From Tomocerus qinae (lineage: Eukaryota > Arthropoda > Collembola > Entomobryomorpha > Tomoceridae), in assembly GCA_020055645.1 (NCBI GenBank), contig CM034546.1, forward strand, positions 38,378,001-38,442,000: a DNA stretch of 64,000 bases, in the 5' to 3' direction. This document shows, piece by piece, positions 5,559 through 50,201 of this stretch. Every line of letters starts with the position of its first letter. Position 1 is the first letter of the stretch. A program made the position numbers and the translations under genes. The notes beneath the pieces were generated by a model. That model ran no database searches. It was not told the origin of the DNA and worked only from the letters and a program-made list of their open reading frames with translations.

Positions 5559-5817
5559 GCTGCTTTTTCAAAACTGCTACCGCTTGCATCAAGTGTCTAA
5601 ACTGTACTCTGCACTTCAGTTCCGATTTCTCTTCTACAAGTTTATATATCATTGTTTTCGTTACGACCTCCTCTTCATTTTGTCATTGAAAATTCTGAAT
5701 TTTACCGTTGGAACTGGAGGATCTTTTACTTAAAATGATCTGTTATGAGCTGATTATTCAATTTTTTCCTTTCGATTTTGATCTAAATCTTGTTTAATTA
5801 CTTGGATAATCATTGTC

Positions 5818-6771
5818 ATGGATCCAATTAGTACTATTGGTAATACTACAGCTTCTAGTACTGAAAATTCAAAGCGAAGAGATCCTGATACACCTTGCCC
5901 TCCGTGTGGATTCTTATGCAGAGGACCAATTGGGGTAGCCACTCATACTAGAAGTAGACATCCAGCTGAAAGTCGAAAAGCTAAAGCGTCCTTGCATACA
6001 CAAAGTGCAGATTCCTCACCTGTAGTTAATGATGATTTGGAATGTCCAAATGATAAAGATGAATCCAGAAGAAAATTAAATCATGCTCTTCTAAATATAA
6101 ATAACTTACTGAAATCAGTTATCGATATACAGCCTACTTTGGAAGAATTAGATGTTGTGGTTGGTAAACTAATTGACATTTTAACTAAAGGAAATGACAA
6201 TCTCCCTGGACCAAAGCACCCAGCCAAGAAATATTATAATGCCAGAAAAGGTAATAACTTCACTCAGAATGAACGGAAATATTCGGAAACAACAAATCCT
6301 CAAAGAAAATCTAAACGTGATAGACAACGTCGACGTGAAAAATACCGATATGACCACATTCAATATCTCTACTACAATCAAAGAAGAAAATGTGTGAGAA
6401 ATATTCTTTCAAGCGATTCTAAGAAATGCAATATTAATCTCGACTCTTTGCATCAATCATTCACTGCAAGATGGACTACCGAAAATAACAATTTCTTAGA
6501 TTCCTATGCAAAGGTGGATTGTAATACACAACATTACCTTGACATGAATTTTGATGTGACTATTTCAAAGAAGGAGATCCAGGAGTCCATTAACAGTATT
6601 TCCTATGATAGCTCACCCGGTCCTGATCGCATTCTCACACGTACCGTAAAATATCTATAATGTTCTCAAGTTTTAGCTACTTTGGCTACTATTATGATTA
6701 AATGGAATATTGTGCCATCTCAATTCAAAGAAGCAAGGACAGTTTTAATATACAAAAGTGGAAACGAAGAA
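5818..6771 (+). pseudogene. R2-like non-LTR retrotransposon, N-terminal part
   Basis: The ORF starting MDPISTIGN carries a C2H2 finger at residues ~24-45 (CPPC, then H-x4-H), a basic region (~160-185), and the start of the reverse-transcriptase domain (SPGPDRI at ~270). An in-frame TAA at 6658-6660 interrupts it. The same frame continues to 6771 (NIVPSQFKEARTVLIYK), where the BEL/Pao LTR starts. The rest of the RT resumes at 22114. An N-terminal C2H2 finger with a C-terminal restriction-like endonuclease is the layout of the R2/R4/NeSL group, which makes target-primed insertions. The element was already damaged or was only one of many dead copies. Confidence 0.8.
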
Positions 6772-7370
6772 TATTTATGTATATAATAGTTCATTTCTAT
6801 TTGCCATATAGTTATAACCATAATATATACGTAGTATTTAGTCTTATTTTATCCTTATGTATTTATAGGCTTATAATACTTATATATGTAGGTACGAATA
6901 CTTTTCCGCTTGTAACCACATTCTTATTGCTAGCATAATATACACACTAGAGTTAAGCATAATATTTACGTTATGATTTTTCTGGGTACGAATAAGTACG
7001 TATACACTTGCATGTGTATGTAAAGCCCTATTGGCAGCTTTTTCTTAATGTATCCTAGTCTACTCACATTTATATGGAACTCTGTTCCAGATTATTAGTT
7101 ATTAACTAGGTTAGTACTCCAGATTATTGTTTACTTTTAAGTTCATCTAACCTTAAGACATCCTTATGTAAGCATATATAAAGATGTAATTCTGCACAAA
7201 TAAAACACTTTGTAATCCACTTCTACATAGTCATAACTCTCTTTTCTTTCTCATTTTTAATTTTCATAAGACTTAGGACAGGAGTCTGTAAGACTCACTC
7301 ATAGATTGGAGGAAACTTCATAGGTATTTTTCAGCAGTTATTTTGCAAGTTTCCAGGCCAAACCAATCCA
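6772..7370 (+). repeat. 5' LTR of the BEL/Pao element
   Basis: The ends are TATTTATG... and ...CCAATCCA, without the usual TG start. A TATA-like TATATAAAG lies at 7175-7183 and an AATAAA at 7199-7204, so U3/R/U5 can be placed: start of transcription should be near 7205-7215. Confidence 0.93.
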
Positions 7371-8166
7371 TTTGGCTCCCACCATAGGAATCGAACACGA
7401 TTTTCAATTACGTTGAAATTTTCGTTTCATAGTACTATTCGCCCCGGGAAAGAATCACCGTTCTTCTCGTTTGCGGTGAATTTTCAGTGTTATAGACTGA
7501 GACTCAGCTACGTGTCTATTTAGCCGGCTCCCACAGACACCTACATAAAAGTGTATAGTGCATACTGCTAATGTGCGCTTTTCGTCTCATCCACTTTCAC
7601 ACATTAGCCTAAGTTGTGCTGTGTGTAATTCGTACAGTTTTTGTGCTCCACTCCTGGACAAGTTATTCTCGTCTCACGTCAGGCCTGCTTGCCTGAATCG
7701 TTCCACTCGCAACCACAAGCGTACAGTCTACTCGTTCACTACACTGTTTGCCCATTTCACTCACGATTGGGCTACTTACTACTATTAGTGCCTACCCTAC
7801 GTTGAGCTCAGCTCTTTTTCCCTCTGTGCGATTTTGTGCCATTTTGCACAGTGTGTGTATTAATTCATCGATTCGTTCTTCACTTCAGCGTCGGTCTCAC
7901 CCCATTTCCTATACCTACACTTATTATTGTCTGCCGCTGCTGCTTCTCTCCTCTCGCTGCACGGACTCTGCTGCATTTCTGCAACATTTTGTACTTGAAT
8001 CTTGAACTTGCGTTCCGATTCCGTACCAACGTTAAGGTCAGCTACTTTTTGGTATTTTCCCCTGTTAGTCGTCCACTTTTTCGGTGGCCAGGGCTTGTCT
8101 TCACGACAATAGAAAATTAACCATATTAATGTTAGAGACACATAGTTTAACTATGATGTCTAACAA
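7371..8166 (+). promoter_or_regulatory. Primer-binding site and untranslated leader
   Basis: Two bases after the LTR, TGGCTCCCACCATAGGAA (7373-7390) plus TCGAA reads as the complement of a tRNA 3' end: CCA, discriminator, acceptor strand, T-stem and the conserved TTCGA of the T-loop. I cannot name the isotype. The rest of the 796-bp leader has several small open frames on both strands without recognisable domains. It probably holds the packaging signal and a splice donor for the downstream genes, which I cannot pinpoint. Confidence 0.7.
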
Positions 8167-11100
8167 ATGAGCACTCAAGATGACCAGCAACCCACAAGTA
8201 GTAGATCCACTAGACAGCAAGGTCCAGCCAAACTTCCCCCCAGTTACCACCCCGCAAAAAGTCCGTTTAGAACAGCAAAGCAAGGTCACCAACAAGCGGC
8301 AAAAAGTACCCCCACAGTTGTTTCTGACCAAGAATTTGAGAAACAATTTAGAAAAACTCAAAGAGAAATCCTCACACCTCAACCAGGAACCTCAGACCCC
8401 CTCGCTAGAATCCCAGGTAGACGTGGTACCCAACCAAGGTCAAGAAGCGACCGTACCACAATCTCCGAACCATCAACTAGCCAATTTCCTGAGACTTCAC
8501 CGCCAAGACCGGTGCCCGTATTGTCAGGCCACCCGACACCAAGTTTGCCTCAAGACGAGCGGAAGTCACTCCTCACACAAGTCAGGCATACGCTATTTGG
8601 GGCCCCCGAGCAGTCACAGCCAAAGCAATTAGTAGCCTACGATACAACACCTCCAAGATCATCTCAAAAGCGACGAAGATCTAACACCCCCTCAGATATG
8701 GACGGTTCTAATCACGGAGATGAAGATCAAGACAACAATGGCCTCGGAGGCGGAGGAGGAGGCGAAGGAGGTAATGGAGGACGCAACAATGGCAATGGAG
8801 ATCGAAATGGAAGAAACCGAGACCAAAGATTGCCAAACGATCGTTCTAGAAGGAATTCCGGAGATCAATCAGTTATTCTCCCTCAACTGGATCATCAGGA
8901 GGCTCATGAAGCTATTGAATCCTCTCTATTAAAAATAGAAGCAGCACTAGAACGACATAACCAGAAAACTGAGATCCTAACTGCTATTGATACAGAAATC
9001 TATTTAGAAGAATTAAAAACGCTAAAGATAGATTTAAATAAGCAGCATAAAAATTGCTTCAAGTATTTTTCCAATGAAGAACAAAAAGATTATGTAGACC
9101 TAACAAATCAAGAAATAGCTCTAGTAGCATACAATAATTTAGAAGACAGATATATGAAAGTACTAAAAGAGTTAATGGCCATATCAAAAGTATTATCCCC
9201 CTCAATATCAGCTTCGGCTGGAGCGGTAAACAAACTCAAAATACCAAAGTTCAGTCTACCAAGGTTCTCGGGAAAACCAGAGCATTGGACAACTTTCAAG
9301 GATAATTTTGAGTCTGTTGTCATAAAACAGGCCGCCTTTTCCCCAGCAGAAAAATTACGGTTACTAAATGACGCGCTTAAAGACGGCACTAGAAAGTACA
9401 TCAACAGTGATCTGAAAGTCACTGATGAGAACTGGCCAATTGCTTGGAAACGACTGATTTCCAGGTATGACACGCCAAGAGAAATGGCACACGCCGCTTT
9501 AAGACCGGTATTACATTTACCGACTCTCTCTATACAGACAGAAGAAGGCATTAATCGCATAGTAGATATAGCACGGGCATCTGAGGCCCAACTCAAAGAG
9601 ATAAATACAACGGTACCATTATACCATGTATTTTACATTCATTTCATTCTCGCAAGGTTAGATAGCAAAACAGCAAAAGCATTTAACGATTCAATTAAAA
9701 CAGATGAAATTCCAACATTCGAATCATGTTTAGAATTTCTAGCGAAAAAAGCAAAGGCTATAGGGTTAAATACGCAAATTCGAAGTACAGTTCAAGGATC
9801 ATCCTCAAAGCCAAAGGATGTTAGATTTAGTCATAAATCACGAAGAGAATCCCGTATCATGGTAGCGACTCAGGATACGGATGGAAACACTACAGATGCA
9901 AATACAGACTATAATTCCGATACAAATATTTCTGACACCAGCTACACTACTAATAGCATCTTCAGCGTGTCAAGCGAGGCAAAGAAGCGAAAAAAGCCTA
10001 ACAAAAAGAAAACAGATAGAAAAAAGGCAATCAATTTCGCCAGTTCAAGGCAACCCAATTCACAGAGAAGGGAACGGCCAAGAAGTCCGTCCCCAGCCGC
10101 AAATCACAGAAATCAGAAAAATGGGAAAAATGCAAATAGCCAGGCTCCTAGAGCCCCTTGTCCACTTTGTAAAAGCAGTAACCATAGGGTCCAAGCTTGC
10201 TCTAAATGGGAAGCAATGTCCCCTAGAGCAAGGACCGAATGGGCTAAAGTTAACAGCCGCTGCTTTAACTGTTTAGCTAGCCACCGAGTAGCTAATTGCA
10301 CTAGTAAATACACATGCATGGTGTGCCGAAGACGTCATCACACGTCTTTGCACATCCCCAATGATGGGCCTGGGCCAACAAGGCCCAACAGTCCCAATCG
10401 TGGTACTCGACAAACCACACCTGTATTAAATCATTCAAGGATATTTTTAGACGAAACAGAAGAAGAAGTAGGACTTCTCCCAACCGCAATTGTACTCGTA
10501 CAGAACAACGGAAAATCTTGCAAGGTCCGTTGTCTCTTAGATTGCGGCGCGCAAAATTCATTCATAACAGAAAAGACTGCAAGGCAATTGCAGCTTGAAA
10601 ATATAGGAGAAGTAAAACGATTTACTGTAGCAGGAGGAAAAACAATCCCATCTCTGGGAAAAACCTCATTCTGGATACAATCCATTGTGCATCCACATAA
10701 CTCATACCGTATAATGGCTTATATTCTTCCCGACATTACGTCACCATTACCCAATCAATCCTTTGATAAAAAGGAATTGAAACATTTAGAGGGATTACCA
10801 TTAGCCGATCCTTCGTTCAATGAAACTCAACCCATTGAATTGCTGCTCGGATCCGCAATTTATGACAAGGTAATGGAAGCTAGAAAAATCACTGGCGTTC
10901 GTGGTACTCCAAGCGCATATCGTACAACTTTAGGTTATGTTGTACTTGGAGAAACTACAGATGAAACAGCTAAGTTATGCTGTGCTGCCATGAAAAGGAA
11001 GGATGTTGTTCCCATTCCATTGGCACCATTCAACATGGAACAATTCTGGGAATTAGAAGAACTGCCCTGCAAAAGGCAGCTAACTGAAATGGAGAAATTC

Positions 11101-14100
11101 TGCGAAGAACATTACGTGAAAAATACGATCCGTCTGCCCAACGGACGTTATCAAATTCGATTTCCAATGATTGACAGTCCGGAAAAATTAGGTGACTCAC
11201 TTTCTGCTGCCGTCAGACGATGGATAGGCACAGAAACTAGATTAAAGAAATTTCCAGAATTGAAGCAAGAGTATAATGATCAACTGGAAGATTATCTAAA
11301 ATCTGATCAGATGGAAATGATAAGGGACGAAAATCCACTAGGTAGGCCACATCACTATTACATACCTCATCATGCGGTATTTAAGCCAGACTCCACAACG
11401 ACTAAAGTTCGTATTGTTTTCGATGCATCAGCCAAAACTGCATCTGGAGTATCTCTAAACGACATTTTAGCACCAGGTCCCACAATCCAACCAGATTTAT
11501 TCGATCAATTACTATATTTCCGGTTAAAACCCATTGCGATAGTGGCAGATATAGCAAAGATGTATAGACAAATTCTAGTACATCCAGAGGAACAGGATTT
11601 TACTAGAATAGTTTGGCGAAAAAAGCCAGGAGAAATCTTAGAACACTATAGGATGAAGACTATTCCGTTTGGAATCAACGCATCTCCTTTCCTAGCATGT
11701 AGAACCCTTCGGCAATTAGCCATAGACGAAGGAGAACGCTATCCTTTAGCAGCACAAGCTATAAAAGTCCATTTTTACGTTGATGACTACATGGCCTCGT
11801 ATGAGAATCTAGCCACTGCAAAACAAGTGAAAAATGAGTTAATTCAAATCATGTCCACAGCCCATTTCGAGCTGAGGAAATGGAGCAGTAATTCCAAGCA
11901 ATTATTGCTATCTCTACCAGCACATTTGCGAGAGACACCTGAAATCCCCATGCAAATGGATAATACTGCGACAATCAAAACTTTAGGATTAAAGTGGCTA
12001 CCCTCTGCAGACAAATTCATGTTTACTGTCAATTTAGATCCCTTTAAATCACATACGAAAAGGACAATTCTGTCAGATATTTCAAAAGTTTTTGATCCAC
12101 TAGGACTTTTAGCCCCAGTAATCACTAAAGCTAAAATTTTAATGCAAAAGATTTGGATGGAAAAAGTAGAATGGGATCAAGCTATTCCTGATTCTCTGCT
12201 AGCAATTTGGCTTCACTATGCCAAAAATTTGAAACAATTAGAAGATATACGAATTCCCAGGTGCTTAAATTATGATAAAACATATTCTTGGGAACTTCAT
12301 GGGTTCTGCGACGCTAGCGAGAGTGCATTTTCAGCAGCTATATACTTGAAAGGCATAAAAGGGGACAAGGTCACTGTCAATTTGATTGCTGCCAAGACTA
12401 GAGTGGCCCCTATCAAAACAGTTACAATTCCAAGGCTAGAACTGCAAGGCGCAGTATTACTAGCTAACCTAACTAATCATATCAAAAAGTTATGGGATAT
12501 CCAGTATACTGCTACCCATCTATGGTGTGACAGTACGATCGCTCTGAACTGGATTCACTCCGAACCGAACCGCTGGAAAATTTTTATAGCTAACAGAATT
12601 ACTCAAATTCAGGAACTCACTACTAAAGAGCAATGGCATCATATTGCCTCAGAAGACAATCCCAGTGATTGTGCTTCACGTGGTCTGGACCCAGAAGAAT
12701 TACGTCATCATCCTTTATGGTGGCATGGTCCAAAATGGCTAGCTCAGCCAAAATTTCGAGTCCCTAGATTTAACCCAACGACTTGCACAAATGAATTCAC
12801 TGAAATAGAAGAAAAGAAACCAGCCATTTGTGCAGTCACAAAATCAGACCCAACAGACGTGTTGACTAGCCTAGCAAAATTTTCATCATGGAAAAAGGCT
12901 ATTCGAGTAATGGCATACATTCTTCGATTTACAAATCGAAAGGCGAAAGGAAAATCAGTAATCTTATCGCCATCAGAGTTAGACTCAGCTGAACGCAAAC
13001 TAGCTAAATTAATACAGGAAAAAATATACCCAGATTTAGGCTATATTGTTCACAATAGTAAAAATCATCCGTTTAAAAATTTGGATATATTTAAAGACGA
13101 TGAAGATATTTTTCGAGTTGGGGGAAGATTAAAAAATTCGCCCCTACCCTTTGAGGCTAAACACCCCATTTTGTTACCAGGAAATCATCCACTAGTAAAA
13201 GCCATGATTTTGCACACTCATGTCATATTAGCACATGCAGGAAAACAAACAGTAAACGCTCATATTAGACAGCGTTACTGGATTCCCAATGGCGCTAAAA
13301 CCATTAAAAGTGTCATAAACAAATGCTTAATTTGCTTTCGATATAAAGCAAAACCCGCAACTCAACTCATGGGGCAACTGCCACCGGCCAGATTCAGCGA
13401 TATCCGCCCTTTCTTACATTGTGGGGTGGACTGTACCGGACATTTTGAACTAAAAAATTTTACCGGCCGTGGTGGACCATTTAAAGTATGGATACTACTT
13501 TTTGTATGTATGAGCTCCAGAGCTATACATTTAGAAATATTATCATCTATGTCCGTAGATGGATTTTTACTAGCATTCAGGAGATTTATATCTCGACGTG
13601 GACGTCCTTCCCACATGTATTCTGACAATGGCACTAACTTTGTCGGAGCTAGTAATCGCATGGAAGATTTCCATAAACAAATGTGGACAGCTATCATGTC
13701 CAGAAATAAAATTCTCCCAGACATAGAATTTGAAAAGATGACTTGGCAGTTCAATCCACCAGCCGCGCCTCATAAAGGAGGGTCCTGGGAGGCTGCTGTC
13801 AAACTGATAAAAGATCATTTGAAAAAACTAATTAATTCAGATGTTCACAAATACACCTGGGAAGAATTTGAAACTATAACTACATTTGTAGAAGGAGTGG
13901 TCAATTCACGACCACTTACAGCAATATCGGAGGATCCCCGGGACTTAGAAGTTCTGACTCCTGGACATTTTTTAATTGGACATTCACTAACAATGAATCG
14001 TGAACATGATGTCAGAGAAAATAGGCTAGATAAATATCAGCGCATTTTACGGCGACATCAAGAAATTTGGAGACGATGGGAAAAAGAATACATCACTTCT

Positions 14101-14466
14101 CTCCAAAAAAGGCCTAAGTGGATGACCAAGCAACCTAATCTTCAACCTGGAGATTTAGTTCTAATACTAGACGATAACCAACCGCCATTACAATGGCGGA
14201 CTGGACGAATCAAAGCAGTTCATCCTGCCAAAGACGGGCTAATTCGAGTTACAACTGTAGAAACTCAAACTACATATGATGAAAGAAAGAATAAAATCCA
14301 GAAAACAATGAAAGAATTTCTTAGGCCAATCTCCAAATTAGCAAAACTACCTGGACCAGACGAGGACGATTTCGACGTTCCAATGCTACTAACTGGAATA
14401 GATGAGCATCCCAAAGACACAATGTCACAAATCACTCACGTAGCTTGGAATAAAGATTTTTACGAC
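8167..14466 (+). CDS. gag-pol: BEL/Pao Gag-Pol polyprotein
   Basis: One open frame from ATG 8167. In order: a low-complexity N-terminus with a Gly/Asn/Arg-rich stretch (~residues 190-225); the DUF1759-type Gag core (~356-520, KLKIPKFSLPRFSG); CCHC-like knuckles (CPLC at ~665, CFNC at ~699); an aspartic protease with LDCGAQNSF at ~791; reverse transcriptase with FYVDDY at ~1203-1208; RNase H with GFCDAS at ~1379; integrase with an HHCC zone near 1683 and catalytic D ~1754, D ~1820 (SDNGTN) and E ~1875 (GGSWEAA); and a DUF5641-type C-terminus (GDLVLILDDNQ). All catalytic residues are present and no stop interrupts it, so the copy could be competent for reverse transcription. There is no stop at its end either: the frame continues into the GPCR segment to 14883. 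Particles assemble in the cytoplasm and integration is nuclear. Confidence 0.95.
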
Positions 14467-15496
14467 ATGCCAAAATTACGTCCACATCAAGGGTTAAAAA
14501 CTACTGTCTGGCTATGGATTTATACAGCAGTAATAATGCTGATAACAAATCTCCCAGGAAGTAATGCTTCGCAAATCGATAATAATGCAAAAACTAAAAA
14601 TTGGTGGACCACTACAATGGTCTTTTACTGCGTTGTAATTTTTGCAATTCTTGGAACCTTAGGAAACACAATGACCATTATGGCCATCAGAAAAAGCCCA
14701 CATTTGAGAAAAAATAAATTCAACTGGCTAATTACCAGTCTATGTTTTTCTGACTTACTATTTAGTAGTATTACTCTGCCATTGACTGCCATAAGATATT
14801 ATTATGATGCTTGGATATTGGGAAAATTTCTATGCCAAGCACATGCCTTTCTATTGTATGGATTACTCAGGCAAATATCTTAATTATATCGATCAATCGA
14901 TATATCTGTATTGTTTATCATTGGCGATATCCTGACCTTTTTACCAATTATAGAATTTGGTTTATGATAATAACTACATGGGTTCTAAGTTTTCTGATGG
15001 TTACCCCGCCCGCCTTTGGGATTTGGGGTAGATTAGGTCCAAAACCAACAAATTCAGCTTCTTGCTCCATTATTCATGATGAACGTGGACAATCACCCAA
15101 AAAAGCAATTTGGATTTGCGGAATTTGTCTCCCTACTATGATAATCCTATTTTGCTACGCTCGTATTTATGCCTACACTCGAAAAGTAAGAAGACAAATT
15201 GGGTCACACTCCACTAGAGCAATAACAGGGTATGAAGAAAGATCAAGAGAAGAAAAGCAATTATTTCGTATGATTTGTTACGTTTTCCTCGGATTTCTTG
15301 TCAACTTTCAACCGGTAATTATTTTGAATTTATATGACCCAAAACGTGAAAAAGCCTCGAAAATAGTACACATTGGAAGTGCACTATTGGCTTGGGCATC
15401 GTCGTGGACGAATGTCTTGATATATGCAGTAGCGAACAAACAATATATAACTGCATTCAGAAAAATGTTGACACCAAGAAATCACCGTATGAGGAA
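14467..15496 (+). CDS. Captured rhodopsin-type GPCR, Moody/Tre1-like, with signal peptide
   Basis: ATG 14467 lies in the pol frame and opens a signal-like segment (TTVWLWIYTAVIMLITNLPG). Seven-TM features follow: GN in TM1; SLCFSDLL in TM2 (the Asp 2.50 position); the TM3 cysteine (FLCQ); NRY at the end of TM3 in place of DRY; TPPAFGIWGRLG and a loop cysteine (ASCSII) before TM5; a proline in TM5 (CLPTMIILFCYARIY); NFQP in TM6 in place of CWxP; NVLIY in TM7 in place of NPxxY, then a short basic tail. The GIWGRLG and CSII...GQSPK stretch is what I know from arthropod Moody/Tre1 receptors. The frame changes in TM3: the pol frame stops at 14881-14883 while the rest is read in another frame open from 14811. 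The spacing from the TM3 Cys to NRY suggests a few residues are missing there. It probably needs a spliced mRNA and sits in cell or particle membranes. Function unknown. Confidence 0.88.
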
Positions 15497-18400
15497 TCAG
15501 TCTTCAACCACAGCGATAACATTGACAATAATACTGTTGCTAATTGGATCTGGTATGGCGAACTTTCATCAGCCACAACCAGACTTATCACACTTAGCTC
15601 CCCAGTGCGAAGCAGAGTGGTCACCGCACCATGACATCCCAAGCTGTGCAGACACCATATCATGGTTGCACGTCAAAAATAATGGCACTTTATGCCATCG
15701 AAAATTATCTTGCGGCGAAGGAAAAATGATTGCCATTGAAGGCAGCTCTTGTATGCCAATCAACAATTCGTCACTTTGTAGAAAAATGAAGTCATTGACC
15801 TTGGATGATTTGGAATGTCAAACCCACTACACTGACCCAGACCTTGCCATTTTCTATCAAGATGGAATGAGGTCTCCCTTATGTGCAGCAGGCGATTACA
15901 TACTAAAACACTGTCAATATTCTACAGAACAATATGAAAATGTACCGGTAATACTTCACAATAAGCGCATTTTCCCTATATCACAACTAAATATACAAGA
16001 AGACGCTCGTACCAGTTTATACGAGTCATACACCTGCACAGGATCTTGCACTAAAGAAAAATGCACTGCCCGACAATGCAAAGGTGATAGAATATTCTGT
16101 GAAAATTTTGGATGCTCAAATGAGATCAGAGAAAATTGTGAATGCAATTATAATTCATCATCCATTCTACATCGCATAGTAACAGATCTAGGCGATTTTT
16201 ACCCTCAATGCTGGGGCACTATGCGACTCTTAACACGAAAAGAAGATTTAAGTCACTCACAAACTATTTATCCGTGTGCTACATGTACTATTGAATGCAC
16301 AAGAAATGGCTTACTCATTTCTACCCCAGGGACAGTAGCGAAATATATCAAGGCTCAGAGAAACCCCCAGTTTGTAGCTGCAATACCCAGCTCTTCTGAA
16401 ACACGGCTACAATTGTCAAAAAGTATGTTAAGCTCCTCGGGACCAATCAAACTAGAAATGTATTTTTTAGATTATGATTTTCCTACAGAACGTGTAATAA
16501 CATGCCCTAGAGTCCCAATATGCGATTTAATTACTTGCAACATTTGTATGGAAAGATGGAAAAATATTTCTTGTTACACCTACATACAGTATAGTATTTT
16601 AACCATTCTTGGTGTGACTGCATGTTCAGTCATTTTTACGATTATATATGTCTACAAGATTCTTTATACATTGTTTTGGTGCGTTTCTTGGCCATTACGA
16701 ATCTTTATAAGATTCATGAGGGCGAGGAATAAGAGACCCAAACCAATGACCAGGGAATCGGAGGAAGATGTTGGCCCTCCCCTTGTGGAAGTAGCCCCCC
16801 ATCATTCCGTTTCCACTCCATCAATAGCTACAGTACGAGAAACTAATAGGCCCCACAGCGACAGACGCAACTCATCCAGAGTAAGACGACGAGATTATTT
16901 ACCAACACGAATAATCTCACTAGTAACTTTATGTCTCTGTTTATGCATTTGTAACAGCTGCTCTGACTTTGCTTCTATCTCGGCACAGTCAAAAGAATGT
17001 CACTACTCATCTGATACCACCGCTACCTGCACAGTACGAATAAACACTCGACTGTCACTAGCCGCTTTGGATCAGAAAACTTGTTTTCGGATTATGGACG
17101 CCAAAAACAATATTTTGGGTTCAATTGTTATCGAAACGAAGTCAGTGGCTCTTACTTGCATGAAAGAATTACTGTACTATGTCCCAAAAGCAGTTCCCCA
17201 TTGTAAAATGTTATAATCTCTTTAATTCTGCAATGTGTCATGGCACCCATTGTGAAAATTTCGGAATTAACAGTACGATAAAAGAATTTAAACCCACTGA
17301 AAATAATCTTGGGTGGAATTTTTGCCGTAACTTTCACCATAGATGGTGCTTTCTCCCAGTAAATTCCGATTGTGCTTATACTCGTGTAGCCCTGACTAAT
17401 CCGACAAATCAGGTTTATAAAGTATGGAAATGTGATGAGTGGCGTAATTCAGTTAAATTAAATATTACTCATCATCTTGGTAAAATAACCACGACCAATT
17501 TAACTACCATTCATGCGGGAATACCCGTAAAAATTGGGAAAATGGAATTTACTCTAGTTTCAGTAACCCAACCGTATACCCCTATTTTGAACCAATGTTT
17601 ACTGTCACGCAATAACCAATTCAGCCTGTCAGCATGTTTAGAACGTGGACAAACCGAAATTGGTAGTTTAGGAGAAGTTTCCTGCCCTAATGAAAAAGAT
17701 GCCAAAGAATTAAGTAAACATTGTATGGCTAATTTGAATATCATTCGCACAATCCCAACGCAGGATGGTGTACGATGTAAGGCTGATCTGGTAGACCCAG
17801 AAAAAGTTCTGGAAGAGAACAGACTACCTTTAAAATTGGAAAATGGCATGCTAATAGCTGACCATGAAAATATCAGTTTTATTACTTCATCCACCACTGC
17901 TTTGGAGATTCAAATGACTACGGATGATCTCCAAATAACTAAAGAAATACAAGATATCTCTTGTTCTATTGAAATGATCAATTTGTTTGGCTGCCATAAT
18001 TGCAAACCAGGTGCGACATTAGTCCTTGTTTCTAGAGTTGATTTTGGTACAGAAACAGGCACCCTTGAATGCCCTGAAGTTGGATTTTTTAGTCCCATCC
18101 CATTAATTGATAAGTTTGTGAAACATGAAATTACTATGAAATTAAACCAACCAGATATACACCTAAACTGTACATTTAAATGTGCTAAAAAAGTAATTCC
18201 GTTGACTATCTCAGGCCATTTACATTATTTAGAGGATACTGACGTTCGAAATGAAATCACAGACACGTCATTTAACCTACCAAATGGTACGAATACCACT
18301 GACTCTAATTCATTTGGAATTAGTTGGGAAAACATAGGATTTAACTTGGCTAACCTTGCCAGTTCAATCCTCAATTTTCCTTCTTGGATAGGTTCATTAT

Positions 18401-18504
18401 TTTGCTCATGGCTCTTCAAAATATTAGGAATAATAATCCTAATCCTATGTATTATTGGGTTCGTATACTTATGTACCCAAAGACTTGTAAAGAAAATGAT
18501 TTAA
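15497..18504 (+). CDS. env: Phlebovirus-like envelope glycoprotein precursor (Gn/Gc type), one frame break
   Basis: It continues in the GPCR's second frame without a stop. An internal signal-like segment (TAITLTIILLLIGSG, ~15510) leads into a Cys-rich Gn-like ectodomain, a long hydrophobic anchor (~16590-16720), a polar cytoplasmic stretch with a multibasic RVRRR site (~16880), and a second signal-like helix (~16905-16985). The first frame stops at 17216. The Gc-like remainder is in another frame open from 17179, with the pattern WNFC...WCFLP...WKCDEW typical of the phlebovirus-type class II fusion protein, then a C-terminal anchor (IIILILCIIGFVYLC) and short tail. BEL/Pao elements such as Tas and Cer7 are known to carry such envelopes, which mediate membrane fusion. 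The break means this copy probably gives no complete protein unless the assembly is wrong there. Confidence 0.82.
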
Positions 18505-18775
18505 CCTAAAGGAAAAACTTATAAAAATTAATACGACAAAATTGTACTTTAAACTATGTCACCTTAATATTTAGTTTCTAAAAATAAGATTTAAGTTTTA
18601 GTTTTACCTTAAATAAATAGGTTAGGGTACGTACCAGCCACAACAGAATCTTATGGCAATTAATACACTAAAAATTTAGTATATATAGAGATAATAATTA
18701 GCAATTGAAATCAATCTCTGTCTGCACGCCAAGTTAAGCTAAACATAAGTCTCCCATCCTTAAACAATCTACAGC
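18505..18775 (+). promoter_or_regulatory. Gap between envelope and third ORF with a TATA-like motif
   Basis: 271 bp without coding potential. A TATATATAGAGATAA stretch at about 18678-18692 lies 80-100 bp upstream of ATG 18776 and could be an internal promoter. A splice acceptor is equally possible. This rests on the motif only. Confidence 0.3.
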
Positions 18776-19699
18776 ATGGACTCAACTGGACCTTATTTCG
18801 ACGGAACTGCAGAAGAATTAGATACACTCTTAAATCAAGCAGTAGAAACCCACATGGACGACCTGGACGAAATTTTAGACCTCTCAACGGAAAATCCCGA
18901 CCTACCTTTCTCTCTGCCAGAAGAAAGACAATTAGAAACTCCACCACCACCGGCCGAAATTCCTGAACAACCAACCTTGCCCACCGATGGAGAATTGTTG
19001 ACTGAGCTCTCCACCATTCTCTCCAATCCCCCTTTAGGCAGTGTGGCTTTCACACTAAACGATGTCAACTTTTGGGAAATACCGATTCCGGATGAAGTTT
19101 TTGCTACCCTGGAAGAAGTGCAACCAGAGTCTAACAGTCATTATCAACAACTCTACAACCAACAGTTGCAGGACAATATGGAACTCCGACAAAAAATCTT
19201 GACTTTGGAGACCAAAATAGGCCAGCAGGCTCAAGATAACCATCTACGAGCACTTCGTATCCGTCATCTGGAACGTCAGACTAACCAGATGATGCAACAG
19301 GTGTTCAATGCCGAAAACGTGGTTAAACAACTGTATTCCCCAGATCACCCTGTTCTGCATCCATTAGCAAATAAACATATACCACTGTCTGCTCGAGAAA
19401 GACTCCTCCACAATGACGTCCGATACTGGGCCGACAGATCCATGGCACTTAGTCATCAAATTAGAAAAAAGAATAATGACCTACAAAAGGCCGAATTGGA
19501 CTTCGGAAGGGAAAATCAAAAGCATCTCGAAGCCCGAGATACGATTGTTTTACTCAAAAAGCAAATCCAAAGCATGCGATTACGAGTTGTGCCAGCACTT
19601 CGAAAGAAAACCACAAAACCCCAAGCTAAAAGAGTTGTAGGAAAGAAAACCGGCATCCCGACGAAAAGAACCAGGCCAGTGAGACAAACCACAACATAA
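18776..19699 (+). CDS. Unrecognised accessory protein with acidic N-terminus and coiled coil
   Basis: 307 aa, intact. Residues 1-60 are acidic with bulky hydrophobics (DDLDEILDLSTENPDLPF), the look of a transactivation domain. A Pro-rich linker follows (~60-75). From ~118 to ~185 and ~215 to ~270 there is heptad-rich coiled coil. The last ~40 residues are strongly basic (KKTTKPQAKRVVGKKTG), suitable for nucleic acid binding or nuclear import. It is read on the same strand as pol and env and lies inside the LTRs, so it is an element gene. I recognise no family. A regulatory protein of the complex-retrovirus kind is a guess from composition only. Confidence 0.8.
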   Translation: MDSTGPYFDGTAEELDTLLNQAVETHMDDLDEILDLSTENPDLPFSLPEERQLETPPPPAEIPEQPTLPTDGELLTELSTILSNPPLGSVAFTLNDVNFWEIPIPDEVFATLEEVQPESNSHYQQLYNQQLQDNMELRQKILTLETKIGQQAQDNHLRALRIRHLERQTNQMMQQVFNAENVVKQLYSPDHPVLHPLANKHIPLSARERLLHNDVRYWADRSMALSHQIRKKNNDLQKAELDFGRENQKHLEARDTIVLLKKQIQSMRLRVVPALRKKTTKPQAKRVVGKKTGIPTKRTRPVRQTTT

Positions 19700-19950
19700 A
19701 CAGTGTTATCGACTCCAGACAGTTTGTGTACCTTTCAAGGAAATCACACCAGAGAGGATAATAAACATAAAATTATTATACACATTAGTGCACCGCTACT
19801 AAAAATAACTAATACAAAAAAAAGGGTGAAACTATCTCTAAAACTCTTTTGCTTAGTTTAAAACTAACCTCTGCTCTCGATCTACCTCAACATTCTTGTC
19901 TTATCTCTTTCGTTTCTTTCATTTTACAAAGATAATTCTTTCTTCTAAAA
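19700..19950. other. Gap between the two accessory ORFs
   Basis: 251 bp. Nothing is seen except a pyrimidine-rich stretch (~19880-19940) just before the next ATG, which would suit a splice acceptor region. Confidence 0.4.
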
Positions 19951-21387
19951 ATGGAAGATCTATCTAATTCCAACTCAATGGCTGAAACCGCGGATAGTGA
20001 TACTGACTATAGTAGTGACGACTGTGTAAGAATTGTGGAAGAAAAAGACTTTATTCCATATATTGACTACAAGGAACTATACCACAATTTGTTAGATAAA
20101 CACGAGGCTCTCCATAAGTGGAACCAAATATATCGTGCCAACTACAAAGACATCGTTAAAACCACTACTAAAGAAAGTCACGATCTATCCTCCTCCAAAT
20201 TTTCTGCGTTACTCCAAATAGCTCAGCAAGATTTGCGTAATGCAAATGCTGCAGTGCTCCAGAAAGAAGTACGGCGACACAACGCTCAAACCCAATTGAA
20301 TAAGGCTAGAGCTACAATTGACCAATTGAAACAAACAATTAAAGCAAAGGACGAAGAGATAATAAACGCGACAAGTGGCAGAGAGTTCTACAAATATACT
20401 GTAGACTCCTTTACGAAGACTAGTGATGATCGAATCAAACAAGTTGAAGAAATAACGGCCCGCCTCGATGCCTCCAAACGTGAGTATGACATTTTGCGTC
20501 AAGCCAATGATGCTTTATTACGCATTATTGCGACTAAAGCAAAATTAGAAAATCAAATTGAAACAGAACTAGCCACTGTTACGGAAGAACGGAATGAACT
20601 GCACAAGAAAAATCTTGAGTTAATCAGTGAACGTGATTTGTTAAACGACGAACTTCAACAAGTTAAGTTAGAAAACGCTCGTTATAACAAAAATTCGCAC
20701 GAAAAAGACTTATTGGTGAATAATCTTCATCAACATATTTCAACCTTGGTTGAAAAAGTGCAACAACAAATTTCTAACATGATCCCTTCTGGCCAAGAAG
20801 GTTTCCGTGCACAGTTCGAGGCTGCCTTAGCCGAGAACAAACATCTTGCCAAATCGTTACATTCTAACGAAAAGGACCTTTGGTCAACTCATGATGGGGC
20901 TGACTACCTCCGCTCTGAAATTTTGCGGTTAGAAAATGACAAGGCTGCTCTCCAGGATCAGCTCGATTACTCTGACCGTCTCTACCAACAGAACCGGGAG
21001 GAGATGAATTTCGCCGCAGATCAGCAGGAAGGAATCATGGACTTCTACCATGAGGCCTGCCAAAGGCACGTAACGGCCCAAGAGGAACTAGAAAAAGTGC
21101 AGACTTCCTACTTGAAGGAGAAAACTCGACGTTTGCAACACAAAAGGTATGTCAACAACCTTAAAGGGCTCCTACAGGATGAGGCGAAATATCCAGGCAC
21201 CCGCCTGCGATATGTGGAACACCAACTTACGATCGCCCGCACTCTTCAGTCTAGAGTTCGCCAACAGAGAAGAATTTCCCACTTAACCCACAGAAACCGC
21301 AACATGAACCAACTCATTCAGCGGCTAGCTCTTCCTATCACCACGGTCTTCCCTCCACCTCCAGCTCGTCGTAATTCTATTTCATAA
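19951..21387 (+). CDS. Unrecognised long coiled-coil accessory protein
   Basis: 478 aa, intact. The acidic N-terminus (DSDTDYSSDDCVRI) is followed by nearly continuous heptad-rich coiled coil from ~residue 70 to ~400 (runs such as EEITARLDASKREYDILRQA) and a basic tail (RVRQQRRISHLTHRNRN) ending in Pro/Arg. No signal peptide or TM segment. It shares an overall plan with the ORF before it (acidic start, coiled coil, basic end), so the two could be paralogues or partners, but I see no clear sequence match. Last gene before the polypurine tract. Function unknown; a cytoskeletal or assembly role is only a possibility. Confidence 0.8.
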   Translation: MEDLSNSNSMAETADSDTDYSSDDCVRIVEEKDFIPYIDYKELYHNLLDKHEALHKWNQIYRANYKDIVKTTTKESHDLSSSKFSALLQIAQQDLRNANAAVLQKEVRRHNAQTQLNKARATIDQLKQTIKAKDEEIINATSGREFYKYTVDSFTKTSDDRIKQVEEITARLDASKREYDILRQANDALLRIIATKAKLENQIETELATVTEERNELHKKNLELISERDLLNDELQQVKLENARYNKNSHEKDLLVNNLHQHISTLVEKVQQQISNMIPSGQEGFRAQFEAALAENKHLAKSLHSNEKDLWSTHDGADYLRSEILRLENDKAALQDQLDYSDRLYQQNREEMNFAADQQEGIMDFYHEACQRHVTAQEELEKVQTSYLKEKTRRLQHKRYVNNLKGLLQDEAKYPGTRLRYVEHQLTIARTLQSRVRQQRRISHLTHRNRNMNQLIQRLALPITTVFPPPPARRNSIS

Positions 21388-21514
21388 ACACAGGTTCTGT
21401 CGTCTGTTTTCTTTCTCTTTCCTACTCGTTTATCTATTAATCTTATCTTGTCAAACTCTTGTCTTTGCAATTTATTATTATTCCTTTACCCGCAGTAAAT
21501 GAACGGCGGGAGAA
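21388..21514 (+). promoter_or_regulatory. 3' untranslated region and polypurine tract
   Basis: Pyrimidine-rich DNA ending in GGCGGGAGAA next to the 3' LTR. The purine run is the likely plus-strand primer. Confidence 0.6.
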
Positions 21515-22113
21515 TATTTATGTATATAATAGTTCATTTCTATTTGCCATATAGTTATAACCATAATATATACGTAGTATTTAGTCTTATTTTATCCTTA
21601 TGTATTTATAGGCTTATAATACTTATATATGTAGGTACGAATACTTTTCCGCTTGTAACCACATTCTTATTGCTAGCATAATATACACACTAGAGTTAAG
21701 CATAATATTTACGTTATGATTTTTCTGGGTACGAATAAGTACGTATACACTTGCATGTGTATGTAAAGCCCTATTGGCAGCTTTTTCTTAATGTATCCTA
21801 GTCTACTCACATTTATATGGAACTCTGTTCCAGATTATTAGTTATTAACTAGGTTAGTACTCCAGATTATTGTTTACTTTTAAGTTCATCTAACCTTAAG
21901 ACATCCTTATGTAAGCATATATAAAGATGTAATTCTGCACAAATAAAACACTTTGTAATCCACTTCTACATAGTCATCACTCTCTTTTCTTTCTCATTTT
22001 TAATTTTCATAAGACTTAGGACAGGAGTCTGTAAGACTCACTCATAGATTGGAGGAAACTTCATAGGTATTTTTCAGCAGTTATTTTGCAAGTTTCCAGG
22101 CCAAACCAATCCA
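21515..22113 (+). repeat. 3' LTR of the BEL/Pao element
   Basis: The same 599 bases as the 5' LTR except one substitution. It is preceded by the purine-rich GGCGGGAGAA (21505-21514), the likely polypurine tract. Confidence 0.93.
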
Positions 22114-24093
22114 AAGAAGATTGCAGCAATTGGAGACCAATATCAATTTGCAGTGTACTAAGAAGAATAATTGAGAAAGTGATTGATAAGAAACTCCGAT
22201 CATTCATTGATTTTAGTCAACACCAAAGAGGTTTTACAAATAAACCGGGGACTCTCCTAAATTGTGAAATTTTATCAAAATGTCTTACAAAGGCAAAGAA
22301 AGATAAAAAGGATATTTCCGTTCTCTTTCTTGATGTCACCAAAGCTTTTGACCAAATTGGACATCTACACCTAATAAATGTACTCAAGTCGTGCGAGATT
22401 CCGTCATTATTGCGTAATTTTATCATTTCTTTATGCAGAGAAAATTGGACAAGGATTGAAACTCAATTTGGGCGAAGTGGAAAGATATATTTTGAACGAG
22501 GAGTTTTTCAAGGGTCGCCGATCTCGCCTACGTTATTCAACCTTTCAATTGATTTTATTTTGCGTTCTCTTTCCGAAAATGAAATCTCTGCCAAATATGG
22601 TTTTCAATTGCACGAAAATTCGCCTAATGTCTCAGTATTAGGTTTCGCAGATGACACCACCTTGGTCGGAAATTCTATCTTGTCGGCATCTGAGTTGTTT
22701 ATCATTGCACAAGACTTATTTTTACAAATTGGATTATCTCTTAACATTGAAAAATGTAAGGCAATCTTATTACAGAAAGGGAAAATCGTTTACGACGACA
22801 TTAAGATGAATAGCTACACAGTTATTCCTGGTATAACTAAAAATGAACATGTCCGCTACCTTGGAGTTCCTTTTAAAGAAGAACTGCAATTTGATGAAAA
22901 ATCTGTGATGGCTACTTTTCATGCGGATATGGAAATTTTAGTATCTTCACCTTTGCTGAATTCTCATCAAAAATTGACAATTCTGAATCAATATATTTGG
23001 CCACGACTAATATACCCATTTCAAAATGCTCCCTTAAAAAAACTTACCCTAAATTTTCTCCGCAATGTAGATAAAATTATCAGAAGTTGTGTGAAGGAAA
23101 TTATCAATCTTCCTGTATGTTATACTGTAGTAGAAGTGATAGAGGACTTCAAATTATCAATGCTGAATGGGAAGCCTTTATTCAGAAATATGGATCTTAC
23201 CAATTACTATTTAAATCCAACTGTGAATATCTTCAACCATTTCATGAATTATATGAGCGTGAATCTAACTCTTGTTTGGAGCACCTTGGTATTACAATCC
23301 AAGAGAAATTCAATTGTCCACACACTACAAAAATAAAAATTTGACTATTTTGCAAAGAATGAGAGCCCACCTACGCGATATTAGTTTTAATGATTGGAAG
23401 AACCTAAAACAGAAAGGTCAAGGTGTGGACACTTTTCAAGACTATGGCAAAGGAAATAAATTTATTTTATCTAAGAGTGGACTTTCGGATTCAGAATGGA
23501 CTTCCATTTTAAAGATGTCATGTAATGTTGCTGCGGTCAAAGTTATTCCCGGGAGGACATTAACCAACACTTACCAATGCAGATTTGGATGCATTGAGCC
23601 TGAAACCCTTTCTCACGTGTTGGGAAAATGTCCAAGAGGGGAACTCTTACGCAACAATCGACATAACCAAGTCCGCTCGTTGATTGCTGAAAGTTTTGAC
23701 AAAGAAAACTGGGATATAAAAGAAGAATTGCACTGCATTCTTGATAATGGGTCCACCGGTAGAATTGATATTCTCGTTATAAATAGGAAAAGTCGCAAAG
23801 GTTATATCCTTGACCCTACAGTTAGAATGGAGATCGACAAAAATCAAGCTATGACTGTCCATAATGAAAAGTGTGAGAAGTACACCCCAGCTATAAAATT
23901 CTTCCAGGATAATTTCCAAACTCAAAATATTGAGATAATCGGTCTTCTCATTGGAGCCAGAGGAACGATTTTCTCATTTTTCTTAGATTTTGTTAATAAA
24001 TTTAAATTAAGTAAGTCTCTGATTGATGACATAATAATAACTGTCATTAGAGGCTCCGTAAATATTCTACATAATCACATTCACAACAATTAA
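22114..24093 (+). pseudogene. R2-like non-LTR retrotransposon, RT and endonuclease part
   Basis: It continues directly from the frame interrupted at 6771. RT motifs: FLDVTKAFDQ (~22330), VFQGSPISPTLFN (~22505), LGFADDTTLVG (~22645). Two further frame changes are needed: near 23130, after which SRSDRGLQIINAEW fits the family better in another frame, and near 23335. The C-terminal part from ~23340 has a CCHC finger (CRFGC, then H and C, ~23579-23635) and a restriction-like endonuclease with RIDILV (~23764) and ILDPTVRME (~23810). This gives the full R2/R4/NeSL layout, inactive. The stop is at 24091. Confidence 0.82.
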
Positions 24094-34999: not shown

Positions 35000-36985
35000 T
35001 TACAACAAAAAAAGTATTTGCCTTATAAAAGTGGATGTTAACATCATTAGCCATAACCGCACAATTCTTCTTCGTACATTTCTGGCGACGGCTTTTAGTT
35101 TTATTAGAAGATTGACGATGCGCAATTTCAGCATCAACCTAGAGTACCACAACCATTCCAGAAGCAAAGTGATGAATGATCCAAGTAGAAAGTATCCACA
35201 AACAATGAAAATAGTACGGATTTTCATGGTCCGACTAATAGGCAATGTCTGAGATTCTTTATGCTTTAGTTTTGAATGTGATATTATATCTTCCAACTCA
35301 GTAATGAAATACCATTGTTCCTTGAAATATTTTAGAAAACCTCTCTCTTGAAAAATTTTGAAATAGAAATTGAATTCATAGCGGTAGCAAAGGGCGAAAA
35401 TGTAAGATATTGGATTAGAGATATCTGCTTCCTTTACAGTCATGCAAACTCCGGCAGAAGATACTAAAGATGGTATTAAGGGCACAATGTGATGACTTGA
35501 CTCTTTAGGATGTGTGGTAAACAGTTTCATTGAGTAGTTGGTCAACATTTTGCTAGTAAATGTCCAGGGGTCCATTTTAATGTGCTCTGCATTGGATTGC
35601 CAATCAAATATGAAGACACTTGAATTTATTTTGTCCAGAATTTTATATTTTTCGAAAATATTTGTTTTTTGATCGTTCCTTAATCGCCGTTTGTCTCTCT
35701 GCAACAACAACTTATATCCATTTTCCACGAGATCTTTAAAGTCCTTAAATTGCTTTCTGTCTGGCGGAGCAATAATCTCGCTTGTTATCCACGTTTCATA
35801 TAGATTAGCAATTACAAATCCCATGGACACAATTACCAAATACAAAATGTTTCTCTTTTTATTGGAAACATCCTGATTTAAAAGGACGGCTATTGTGGAT
35901 ATAAAAATAAACTCTAATTTCTTGTAGAAAGTAGAAATTCTAAAGCCTAAAGCATAAAATGAAATCGGGAATAGCGAAAATATCAGCCACCAGCAATAAT
36001 CATCAAATGTATTTTGAATCAGAACTGACAAAGGGATGTCCGCCAATCGAGGGTTAGCTTCACAGTAATATGGAATGATCTCTTCAAAGTATTCAATGAA
36101 ATGTGTTACATACCATTGTACATCGTAAGTTCCTTTGTAATAATGGTTTAACATCCAAATGATTCCACATCGACGATGTTTTTCTTTTAGAACAAATCTT
36201 TGCCTTGCATATATGGCAGTGAAGTTCAATCTTTCAGCCATTAATTCCACCACTCTAACTGAATTAAGGCAATTTATGTTAAAACGATTAGCTTTTACTA
36301 TTGAATAGAGCACCATTTTACATTCTGGCATTTCTCTAGCGCCCCTGAACAAAAATTTTCCATCAAGGCCACTAATTTGAATGCCATGAAGATTTCCGTT
36401 TAAAGTATTCCAAATTCTTTCCCACTCTTGTACGGAATCTTCTGCTTCAATTGGATGAAGAGTTAAAGACTCACTCTTCGGATTGTAGAGAATTGTCGTG
36501 TAAATCGAATGTTCGTTTCCAACCTTCATTGCAAATATCAAGAGAGGAGCCACCAAATGTTTGATGAGATATGATTGCCATTTTGGATTCATCCATTTGA
36601 ATTCATCTTTGATGACGATTATGAATATCGAATCGCGACGATTTATTTCTTTACCAAAAAACGTGGCAAGATACTTGTAACCAGGGTGTGGCTCCATTAG
36701 AATATTTACAGTGCAAAAACTTCTAGAGAGATCCCGTGGATTATCTTCATGACGACCAAAGAGAGTTTTATTATATTTGGATGTTGCTAAGGTCCATGGT
36801 TGGCCATTTTGGTTAGACAGGATAAAATCTCTCTGCCATTCGGATTTATAGAAAGTAATCATGTTGAAATCACAATTACTATAGAACGACAGATTTCGAA
36901 AGCAGTTGATGTTGTTTATAATTATAGAAATTAAAAACACTACGATTGGGTAGATTGAATACATTTTAACACGAATTTTGCTCAA
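35000..36985 (-). CDS. Divergent ionotropic receptor, intact single exon
   Basis: 661 aa without introns. Start at 36985, or Met8 just before the signal peptide (IYPIVVFLISIIINNINC). A variable N-terminal domain (~30-230) leads to an S1-like half, TM1 ~328-349 (WWLIFSLFPISFYALGF), a pore segment, TM2 ~375-400, the IR-like ETWITSEIIAPP after TM2, an S2 half, and TM3 ~590-612 (TIFIVCGYFLLGSFITLL). This is the iGluR-derived IR layout; divergent IRs act with co-receptors in taste or contact chemosensation. I see no glutamate-binding Arg/Asp signature, as expected for divergent members. Paralogues at 912-1611 and 49118-51908 are both dead, so this is the one working copy in the window. A divergent signal-peptide exon lies 185 bp upstream. 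Confidence 0.88.
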   Translation of the reverse strand: MSKIRVKMYSIYPIVVFLISIIINNINCFRNLSFYSNCDFNMITFYKSEWQRDFILSNQNGQPWTLATSKYNKTLFGRHEDNPRDLSRSFCTVNILMEPHPGYKYLATFFGKEINRRDSIFIIVIKDEFKWMNPKWQSYLIKHLVAPLLIFAMKVGNEHSIYTTILYNPKSESLTLHPIEAEDSVQEWERIWNTLNGNLHGIQISGLDGKFLFRGAREMPECKMVLYSIVKANRFNINCLNSVRVVELMAERLNFTAIYARQRFVLKEKHRRCGIIWMLNHYYKGTYDVQWYVTHFIEYFEEIIPYYCEANPRLADIPLSVLIQNTFDDYCWWLIFSLFPISFYALGFRISTFYKKLEFIFISTIAVLLNQDVSNKKRNILYLVIVSMGFVIANLYETWITSEIIAPPDRKQFKDFKDLVENGYKLLLQRDKRRLRNDQKTNIFEKYKILDKINSSVFIFDWQSNAEHIKMDPWTFTSKMLTNYSMKLFTTHPKESSHHIVPLIPSLVSSAGVCMTVKEADISNPISYIFALCYRYEFNFYFKIFQERGFLKYFKEQWYFITELEDIISHSKLKHKESQTLPISRTMKIRTIFIVCGYFLLGSFITLLLEWLWYSRLMLKLRIVNLLIKLKAVARNVRRRIVRLWLMMLTSTFIRQILFLL

Positions 36986-37169
36986 TGGTCTTTACCAGTT
37001 CGTGAACGATCCAATGTAGTAAGAGAAAGAATGTTCAGTTTTAGATTACGTCCGTATACCTAGTCTCAATGAGGCACCAACGCAGTATTCAAGGCTGGCA
37101 ATTAATAGCAAAATAGCAACGAACGATTGTCAATTGTCAACTATAACCTCAAGTTATAAATCATATACC
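36986..37169. promoter_or_regulatory. Short divergent intergenic region
   Basis: Only 184 bp separate the IR start from the oppositely oriented signal-peptide exon. The same arrangement recurs at 51909-52085. A shared bidirectional promoter is an inference from spacing and conservation. Confidence 0.35.
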
Positions 37170-49377: not shown

Positions 49378-49559
49378 TGTCGCGGTGTTGGTATAATGTG
49401 AGACTTGGAAGTCTCGAGGATAGGCTAGGCTTGTTGATTGTGTAAGAAGGTAATAAGCTCGTGCTTAGCTCAGTTGGAAGAGCATCGGTCGCGTTAACCG
49501 GGTAGGGCGGGGGTTCGAGTCCCTCAGCCGGGCTTTACTTTTTACACAACCACTCGACA
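49378..49559 (+). repeat. 5' LTR of the TRIM
   Basis: Identical to the 3' LTR except in and beside the anticodon arm of the tRNA-like unit, plus the resulting one-base length difference. Confidence 0.9.
49457..49533 (+). tRNA. tRNA-like Pol III unit in the 5' LTR
   Basis: 77 nt. A box TAGCTCAGTTGG (49466-49477), B box GGTTCGAGTCC (49512-49522), T5 terminator at 49539-49543. The D stem (GCTC/GAGC) and T stem form; the anticodon stem TCGGT/ACCGG pairs. The 3' acceptor strand AGCCGGGC is tRNA-Lys-like but the 5' strand GCTCGTG pairs only partly. The loop CGCGTTA lacks the universal T33, so it is unlikely to decode. More like a domesticated promoter or tRNA mimic. Confidence 0.65.
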
Positions 49560-50020: not shown

Positions 50021-50201
50021 TGTCGCGGTGTTGGTATAATGTGAGACTTGGAAGTCTCGAGGATAGGCTAGGCTTGTTGATTGTGTAAGAAGGTAATAAG
50101 CTCGTGCTTAGCTCAGTTGGAAGAGCATCGGTCGCGTTTACCAGAAGGGCGGGGGTTCGAGTCCCTCAGCCGGGCTTTACTTTTTACACAACCACTCGAC
50201 A
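50021..50201 (+). repeat. 3' LTR of the TRIM
   Basis: Starts TGTCGCGGTG and ends CCACTCGACA, followed by the ATAT target duplication. Confidence 0.9.
50100..50175 (+). tRNA. tRNA-like Pol III unit in the 3' LTR
   Basis: 76 nt with the same A box (50109-50120), B box (50154-50164) and T5 (50181-50185). The anticodon region differs (GTTTACCAGAAGGG against GTTAACCGGGTAGGG), which weakens one anticodon-stem pair. Confidence 0.65.

Follow-up and report, generated by a model that had tools for sequence, protein, structure and literature searches.

A class A receptor gene between pol and a phlebovirus-like envelope in BEL/Pao long terminal repeat elements of Tomocerus qinae

Can a reverse-transcribing element take over a G protein-coupled receptor (GPCR) of its host and keep it as a gene of its own? 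The question is raised by a 64,000-nucleotide stretch of the collembolan Tomocerus qinae (assembly GCA_020055645.1, contig CM034546.1, positions 38,378,001 to 38,442,000, forward strand), referred to here as the window, in which an earlier note, made from the letters alone, had described a receptor-bearing long terminal repeat (LTR) element at positions 6772–22113. This interval is confirmed to be a single LTR element: its two LTRs (6772–7370 and 21515–22113, both on the + strand) are each 599 bp long and differ by 1 mismatch, and one target duplication, AAGAA, can be read from the flanks at 6767–6771 and 22114–22118. Its contents are likewise those that had been listed, namely a BEL/Pao gag-pol, a rhodopsin-type GPCR, a phlebovirus-like envelope and two further open reading frames (ORFs), recognised by Pfam matches and open frames and all on the + strand. 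We consider it probable, at roughly 0.6, that a Tre1/Moody-type GPCR of the host was taken up by a BEL/Pao family whose envelope is of bunyavirus type, and that the family has kept it as a selected gene acting near the germline. The capture itself is carried by the gene order, a frame shared with the neighbouring genes, the lack of introns, the constraint on the codons and the presence of recent copies.

In the window copy the receptor lies in two halves. The first (14467–14880) comprises a signal-peptide-like stretch and the helices from transmembrane helix (TM) 1 to the start of TM3, and is in the frame of pol, which runs on without a stop into the hydrophobic leader and the first receptor helices; the second (14808–15488) comprises TM3–TM7 and lies in another frame, which continues into the Gn/Gc envelope. 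Both match the Pfam family 7tm_1 (4e-12 for 14467–14880; 1.4e-22 for 14808–15512). The earlier note had treated 14467–15496 as one receptor translation; the assignment stands for both halves, but the interval is not one open frame, containing 20 stops when read as such, and the envelope is broken as well. One frame break falls in the TM3 codons and, compared with the other copies, looks like a short out-of-frame deletion. The other lies in the envelope near 17164–17216, with Gn and the start of Gc (15489–17213) in one frame and the remainder of Gc (17164–18504) in another; the envelope matches Phlebovirus_G1 (PF07243, 2.8e-20) and G2 (PF07245, 7.3e-43). Upstream, gag-pol (8164–14466) contains DUF1759 (1.2e-21), an aspartic protease, reverse transcriptase (RT; RVT_1, 1.2e-7), Peptidase_A17 (2.6e-54), integrase (Integrase_H2C2, 1.2e-10) and DUF5641 (3.7e-28), together with an rve match that, at 6.9e-5, is below the family's own cut-off. 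These domains, the LTR pair and the 5-bp target duplication identify the element as BEL/Pao (Belpaoviridae).

The arrangement is not confined to this locus. We searched the genome of the host, which has 334 Mb in 115 contigs, with the second receptor half; such searches score the best candidates only, and copy numbers are therefore lower bounds. The search gave 41 match rows, including the window and some repeated loci. Pol, both receptor halves and Gn follow one another in that order in 24 of the 33 other regions fetched, although four of these (L015–L018) retain no more of pol than its tail. A further three carry the receptor in other company: with Gn and no pol match (L034), as receptor halves alone (L023), or as a remnant fused to the final part of Gc (L036). 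Two regions are host Tre1-type genes (L035, L037), three hold other host class A receptors (L038, L039, L041) and one, L040, gave no match. The receptor is thus an integral part of the element, as had been claimed, and the absence of a second copy, which the earlier note had named as fatal to its view, did not occur. Fifteen of the 24 receptors are stop-free (L011 being counted among them despite a short out-of-frame stretch) and nine are broken. At three loci the matches to pol, receptor and Gc, the parts for which the genome was searched, lie within one open frame, of 3,472 codons (C1:51.47M), 3,424 codons (C7:1.28M) and 2,933 codons (C3:9.19M).

The element receptors are ~40–99% alike across lineages. 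Lineage A comprises the window copy and L009–L011, lineage B has L021 and L022 as side branches, and lineage C (L027–L029, L031, L033) has receptors ~42% identical to those of lineage A. LTR pairs were sought at 17 loci, with pieces placed for full-length copies, and clean pairs were found at six (L010, L012, L013, L014, L019, L021). Four of these have target duplications that can be read from the flanks: L010 (657/657, AAAAC), L012 (541/541, AGTTT), L013 (542/542, CAGAT) and L021 (840 bp, 98.1%, CCAGT). These four are separate insertions, and the three with identical LTRs are very recent. No clean duplication was read at L014 or L019, and the 3' LTR of L019 is split. Repeats in L011, L022, L027 and L029 were not accepted as LTR pairs, and among the 17 loci none was found at L009, L015–L018, L020 or L028; L009 has an LTR 98.8% like that of the window in its 5' piece only. 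Insertions of ~430 and 250 bases, with stops, lie within the receptors of L012 and L033 and are probably other transposons. At C3:9.17M–9.19M (L014, L026, L049) there are two neighbouring receptor-bearing elements, and a further partial LTR and leader lie past the 3' LTR of L014. Protein-database searches with the second receptor half and with Gc gave no match at 1e-3, and viral-contig scans with the receptor and with pol found no relative.

The receptor is a class A GPCR. In the four stop-free copies tested the full 7tm_1 profile is matched (1–260 of 260, 1e-38 to 1e-42). All 15 stop-free receptors have NRY in TM3, D2.50 and a spacing of 25 residues between C3.25 and R3.50, and the cysteines of TM3 and the second extracellular loop (ECL2) are kept in 6/6 aligned receptors. 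When a six-copy profile was compared with solved structures, the top matches were melatonin receptors (2e-34, profile positions 37–339 of 344) and GPR84 (5e-33). A table in the part of a study of the Tre1/Moody family that bears on this lists 'Humans (GPCR84)' next to the Moody branch (PMC8540695).

Likeness to Tre1 and Moody had been proposed earlier, and the closest host genes among those compared are indeed of this type. The nearest to the L009 receptor is L035 (37.7%, 4e-64), while the Tre1-type genes L037 and L082 are 35–38% alike over shorter pieces. Other host class A genes reach 25–28% over shorter pieces (1e-18 or weaker against L009; 3e-21 at best against any element receptor). A genome-wide search with a lineage C receptor found the element copies first and then L035, exon by exon (34–40%); L039 came near L035 in E-value but is 26% alike. 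Conversely, the 28 rows returned for an exon of L037 comprised, apart from L037 itself, only the element copies and two host genes, L035 and another at C4:23.85M. L035 has the motifs RLTKMMLLI, RIHATTWFV and ASAVINP, and keeps NPFIY in TM7; the Tre1 motifs are given as RLTXMMLXI, RXHATTAFV and ASSVINP in the corresponding section of PMC8540695. The element receptors share with the family NRY in TM3 and with L035 and L037 an SC-[ST]-[IV]...SPK block; they differ from it in being element-borne and without introns, and in having NVxIY for NPxxY and a short tail. Because the NPxxY described for helix 7 in that source is replaced, the element receptor is called kin or derivative of the Tre1/Moody family and not a member. 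Seven element receptors were placed in a receptor tree, where they cluster together (93/97) and this cluster joins the host Tre1-type genes at 92/97, unstarred, neither value being decisive; the host side comprised three Tre1-type genes, two of them partial, and four others, three of these on long branches.

How the gene was acquired is suggested by the introns of the host gene. The coding parts of L035 are spread over different positions and reading frames and are apparently interrupted by introns, among them one at the NRY codons (host exon limits were set by eye, and the host pieces are of unequal length). These introns are absent from the elements; the natural reading is that the gene was captured through spliced RNA. 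The best reading of the whole is that the mRNA of a host receptor would have been captured long ago, after splicing, and is probably still selected as a gene of the element.

The codons of the receptor bear out the purifying selection that had been proposed as a test. Between L009 and L010, 166.7 of 224.7 synonymous sites differ compared with 54.3 of 807.3 nonsynonymous sites (Fisher p 1.3e-92). The ratios of nonsynonymous to synonymous differences per site (pN/pS) for pol, receptor and envelope, respectively, are 0.078, 0.091 and 0.178 in L009–L010, 0.134, 0.210 and 0.277 in L010–L014, 0.236, 0.247 and 0.380 in L010–L022, and 0.220, 0.218 and 0.341 in L014–L022, those of divergent pairs being upper-end estimates because synonymous sites are saturated. 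In two close pairs the envelope is slightly below the receptor (L014–L019, receptor 0.104 and envelope 0.079; L013–L014, 0.129 and 0.118). Other close pairs (dN/dS of 0.38 for L017–L019, and of 0.61 and 0.69 for L027 against L028 and L029) have very few changes and are given little weight; the rows for pol of L013 and L017 and for the envelope of L020, with damaged or non-homologous stretches, were not used. Constraint on the codons of the receptor is about as strong as on those of pol, and the receptor has been maintained as a gene of the element under purifying selection.

Not every related lineage has the receptor. A search of the genome with Gc gave 63 match rows, several of them in elements without any receptor match. 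Behind pol, L076 (C1:78.03M, with an open frame of 3,108) has a leader and a short ectodomain, then a single transmembrane segment and, after that, the leader of Gn. Four further loci of this lineage were fetched, and three, L083 (C1:85.19M), L085 (C1:33.63M) and L086 (C1:85.00M), have the same layout; the fourth, L084, fell in the protease/RT region, away from the place of the receptor. The single-transmembrane layout may be a remnant or the state before capture. L077 and L078 show no receptor match; a single leader comes after pol, and the gap between the pol and Gc matches is 1,770 bases compared with 2,779 in L010. An integrase tree of 18 rows from this genome (L031, with a short match, was omitted) splits 15 rows from envelope-bearing elements from three without a nearby Gc match at 100/100, and leaves the branching order of receptor lineages A/B and C and the receptor-less ones unsettled. 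It is possible that the receptor was gained once and then lost, or that it was gained twice. Across the whole genome, a search for BEL/Pao integrases gave 846 first-look candidates, of which 83 were scored, and 84 match rows; many lie in open frames of ~1,700–1,790 codons, which suggests a large, young BEL/Pao load without the phlebovirus-like envelope.

A deleted form of the element also keeps the receptor. L015–L018 (C2:14.22M, C2:70.07M, C4:21.80M and C1:125.54M) are without RT, RNase H and integrase; their protease region is fused in frame to the tail of pol, with agreeing break points, and is followed by the receptor and envelope, and an ORF5-like gene is kept too. Their 3' LTRs are 99.7–99.8% identical to that of L014 and stand before four different 3' flanks. 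From the common break points, LTR likeness and differing flanks it follows that this form has reached four sites or more; the enzymes it needed were presumably provided in trans. Frame damage of some kind is found in each of the four. Two other origins of these copies were considered and set aside: the related full-length L087/L088 have no GT behind the upstream break, which speaks against splicing, and the upstream part is a zinc knuckle and protease of the same type, which speaks against pol from another lineage.

The function of the receptor can be approached through its relatives. Moody acts at the glial barrier of flies. Tre1, which has the NRY motif, acts in germ-cell migration, according to the relevant part of PMC3848830. 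By analogy with these two, a role of the element receptor near the germline may be suggested. In the scheme that we favour, the captured receptor, fused in frame between pol and env, would be translated either within a gag-pol-receptor-envelope frame or from a shorter message that spans receptor and envelope. Judging from their anatomy, the hydrophobic leaders before TM1 and before Gn would direct entry into the endoplasmic reticulum, where signal peptidase would free the receptor and the glycoproteins. The receptor would then be displayed on producer cells, perhaps also on particles, and might, in what is the weakest step, alter the motility of somatic cells close to the germline, or their junctions, in such a way that particles reach germ cells. 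The bolder form of this proposal, that a reverse-transcribing lineage uses a signalling GPCR of its own to steer infected cells or open barriers toward the germline, and keeps it even in a satellite lacking RT and integrase, can be put forward only tentatively.

Several observations weigh against a working receptor in the service of the element. It is broken in the window copy and in 9 of the 24 others, its start methionine is not conserved (L021, L022, L027), and related envelope-bearing lineages exist without it. A candidate branch point before the receptor, TACTAAC at 14387–14393, was dropped, as it is not conserved even in L009. In TM7 all 15 stop-free receptors have NVxIY and none has NPxxY, as against NPFIY in host L035, and only a short tail precedes the Gn leader; with NPxxY lost, normal signalling is not assured. 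NPxxY is not universal among class A receptors. Since its proline is lost in every stop-free copy, signalling is taken to be altered, and the main rival, though an unlikely one, is a decoy, that is, a captured receptor that takes a host ligand out of play by binding it, or occupies G proteins, and does not steer cells. The short tail also suits a decoy. Against it stand NRY and D2.50, kept in 15/15 receptors, and the cysteines of TM3 and ECL2, kept in 6/6, all of them parts that a coupled fold needs.

A rather improbable alternative is that the receptor serves as a multi-spanning linker for the topology, processing or budding of the envelope. The leader and single transmembrane segment at the same place in the sister lineage (L076, L083, L085, L086) are consistent with this, but the retention of NRY and receptor-specific sites across receptors ~42% alike would be unexpected for a linker. 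Nor does pN/pS favour it, the receptor lying near or above pol and below the envelope in L009–L010, L010–L014, L010–L022 and L014–L022, with the envelope slightly lower in L013–L014 and L014–L019. Captured genes can ride along for some time, and the broken copies might be expected of a neutral passenger taken up by chance; strong purifying selection between element lineages, and retention of the receptor in lineages ~42% identical, make this very unlikely. Finally, an assembly chimera, or an unrelated host gene caught between two elements, is refuted by the further copies: with the joins recurring at 24 further loci, single open frames and separate target duplications, it is untenable.

The remaining parts of the window element lie at its two ends. 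A likely primer binding site, TTTGGCTCCC..., is read directly behind the 5' LTR (7371–7383, + strand), and the TTGGCTCC stretch after the 5' LTR is also present in L010, L012, L013, L014, L019 and L021. Accessory ORF 4 (18764–19699) has, by eye, an acidic N-terminus, a coiled-coil-like part and a basic C-terminus; accessory ORF 5 (19936–21387) is likewise coiled-coil-like, with fast-diverging relatives in other copies. Neither has a Pfam match over the cut-off, and no clear likeness was seen between the two (E 0.07). In L010, L013, L014, L017, L019, L021 and L022 the 3' LTR is preceded by a coiled-coil ORF of the ORF5 type; these ORFs are only 27–34% alike between lineages, and a genome search with the ORF5 of the window gave 12 match rows, all but itself partial or broken; such fast change would fit a host-facing role. 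The element interrupts an older long interspersed nuclear element (5782–6660 and 22035–23336), the right flank of which matches RVT_1 (7.8e-36 for 22035–23333). Elsewhere in the window are repeated ORFs that we take to be ionotropic-receptor-like (849–1430; 35000–36991 and 50113–51792, both on the - strand), of which 35000–36991 has no Pfam match, and, at 41554–43239, what is presumably a Copia-like gag with a zinc knuckle. Two tRNA-Thr (CGT) genes lie ~600 bases apart at 49459–49533 and 50102–50175.

Captured host GPCRs are carried by poxviruses. Herpesviruses, too, have captured host receptor genes; as far as the relevant part of that account extends, these are large DNA viruses with receptors closest to chemokine receptors (PMC4353375), whereas here a Tre1/Moody-type receptor stands in the gag-pol-env frame of a reverse-transcribing element. 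The nearest described element found is Atlas virus, which, with other nematode belpaoviruses, shares a BEL/Pao gag-pol, phlebovirus-like Gn/Gc, one long polyprotein frame and identical LTRs; it differs in its length of 9,204 nt and its Gag-Pol-Env polyprotein of 2,828 residues, and the accessible part of its description mentions no receptor (PMC9094657). The RT site is YVDN in the nematode group, by the same partial source, and YVDD in the window element, which is therefore not filed in that group. LTR elements of bdelloid rotifers also have extra genes behind pol, and include the non-autonomous TelKA2n, without most of pol and with an env-like ORF; their captured ORF3s encode a GDSL esterase, a DEDDy exonuclease or coiled-coil or transmembrane proteins, and the word 'receptor' is absent from the main text (PMC5408684). 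In the pertinent part of a zebrafish study, GPCR genes are merely correlated with the expression of endogenous retroviruses (PMC8672886). Among open-licence papers, a set outside which most subscription papers and preprints lie, we found neither an LTR element nor a retrovirus that carries a GPCR.

Viral capture of GPCRs has so far been a story of large DNA viruses, and a receptor long kept in the polyprotein frame of a retrovirus-like family would bring reverse-transcribing elements into it. The divergent Tre1/Moody-type receptor, with its altered TM7 motif, could be assayed by itself. The presence of receptor-bearing and receptor-less lineages in one genome would amount to a natural experiment on the passage of such elements from the soma into the germline.

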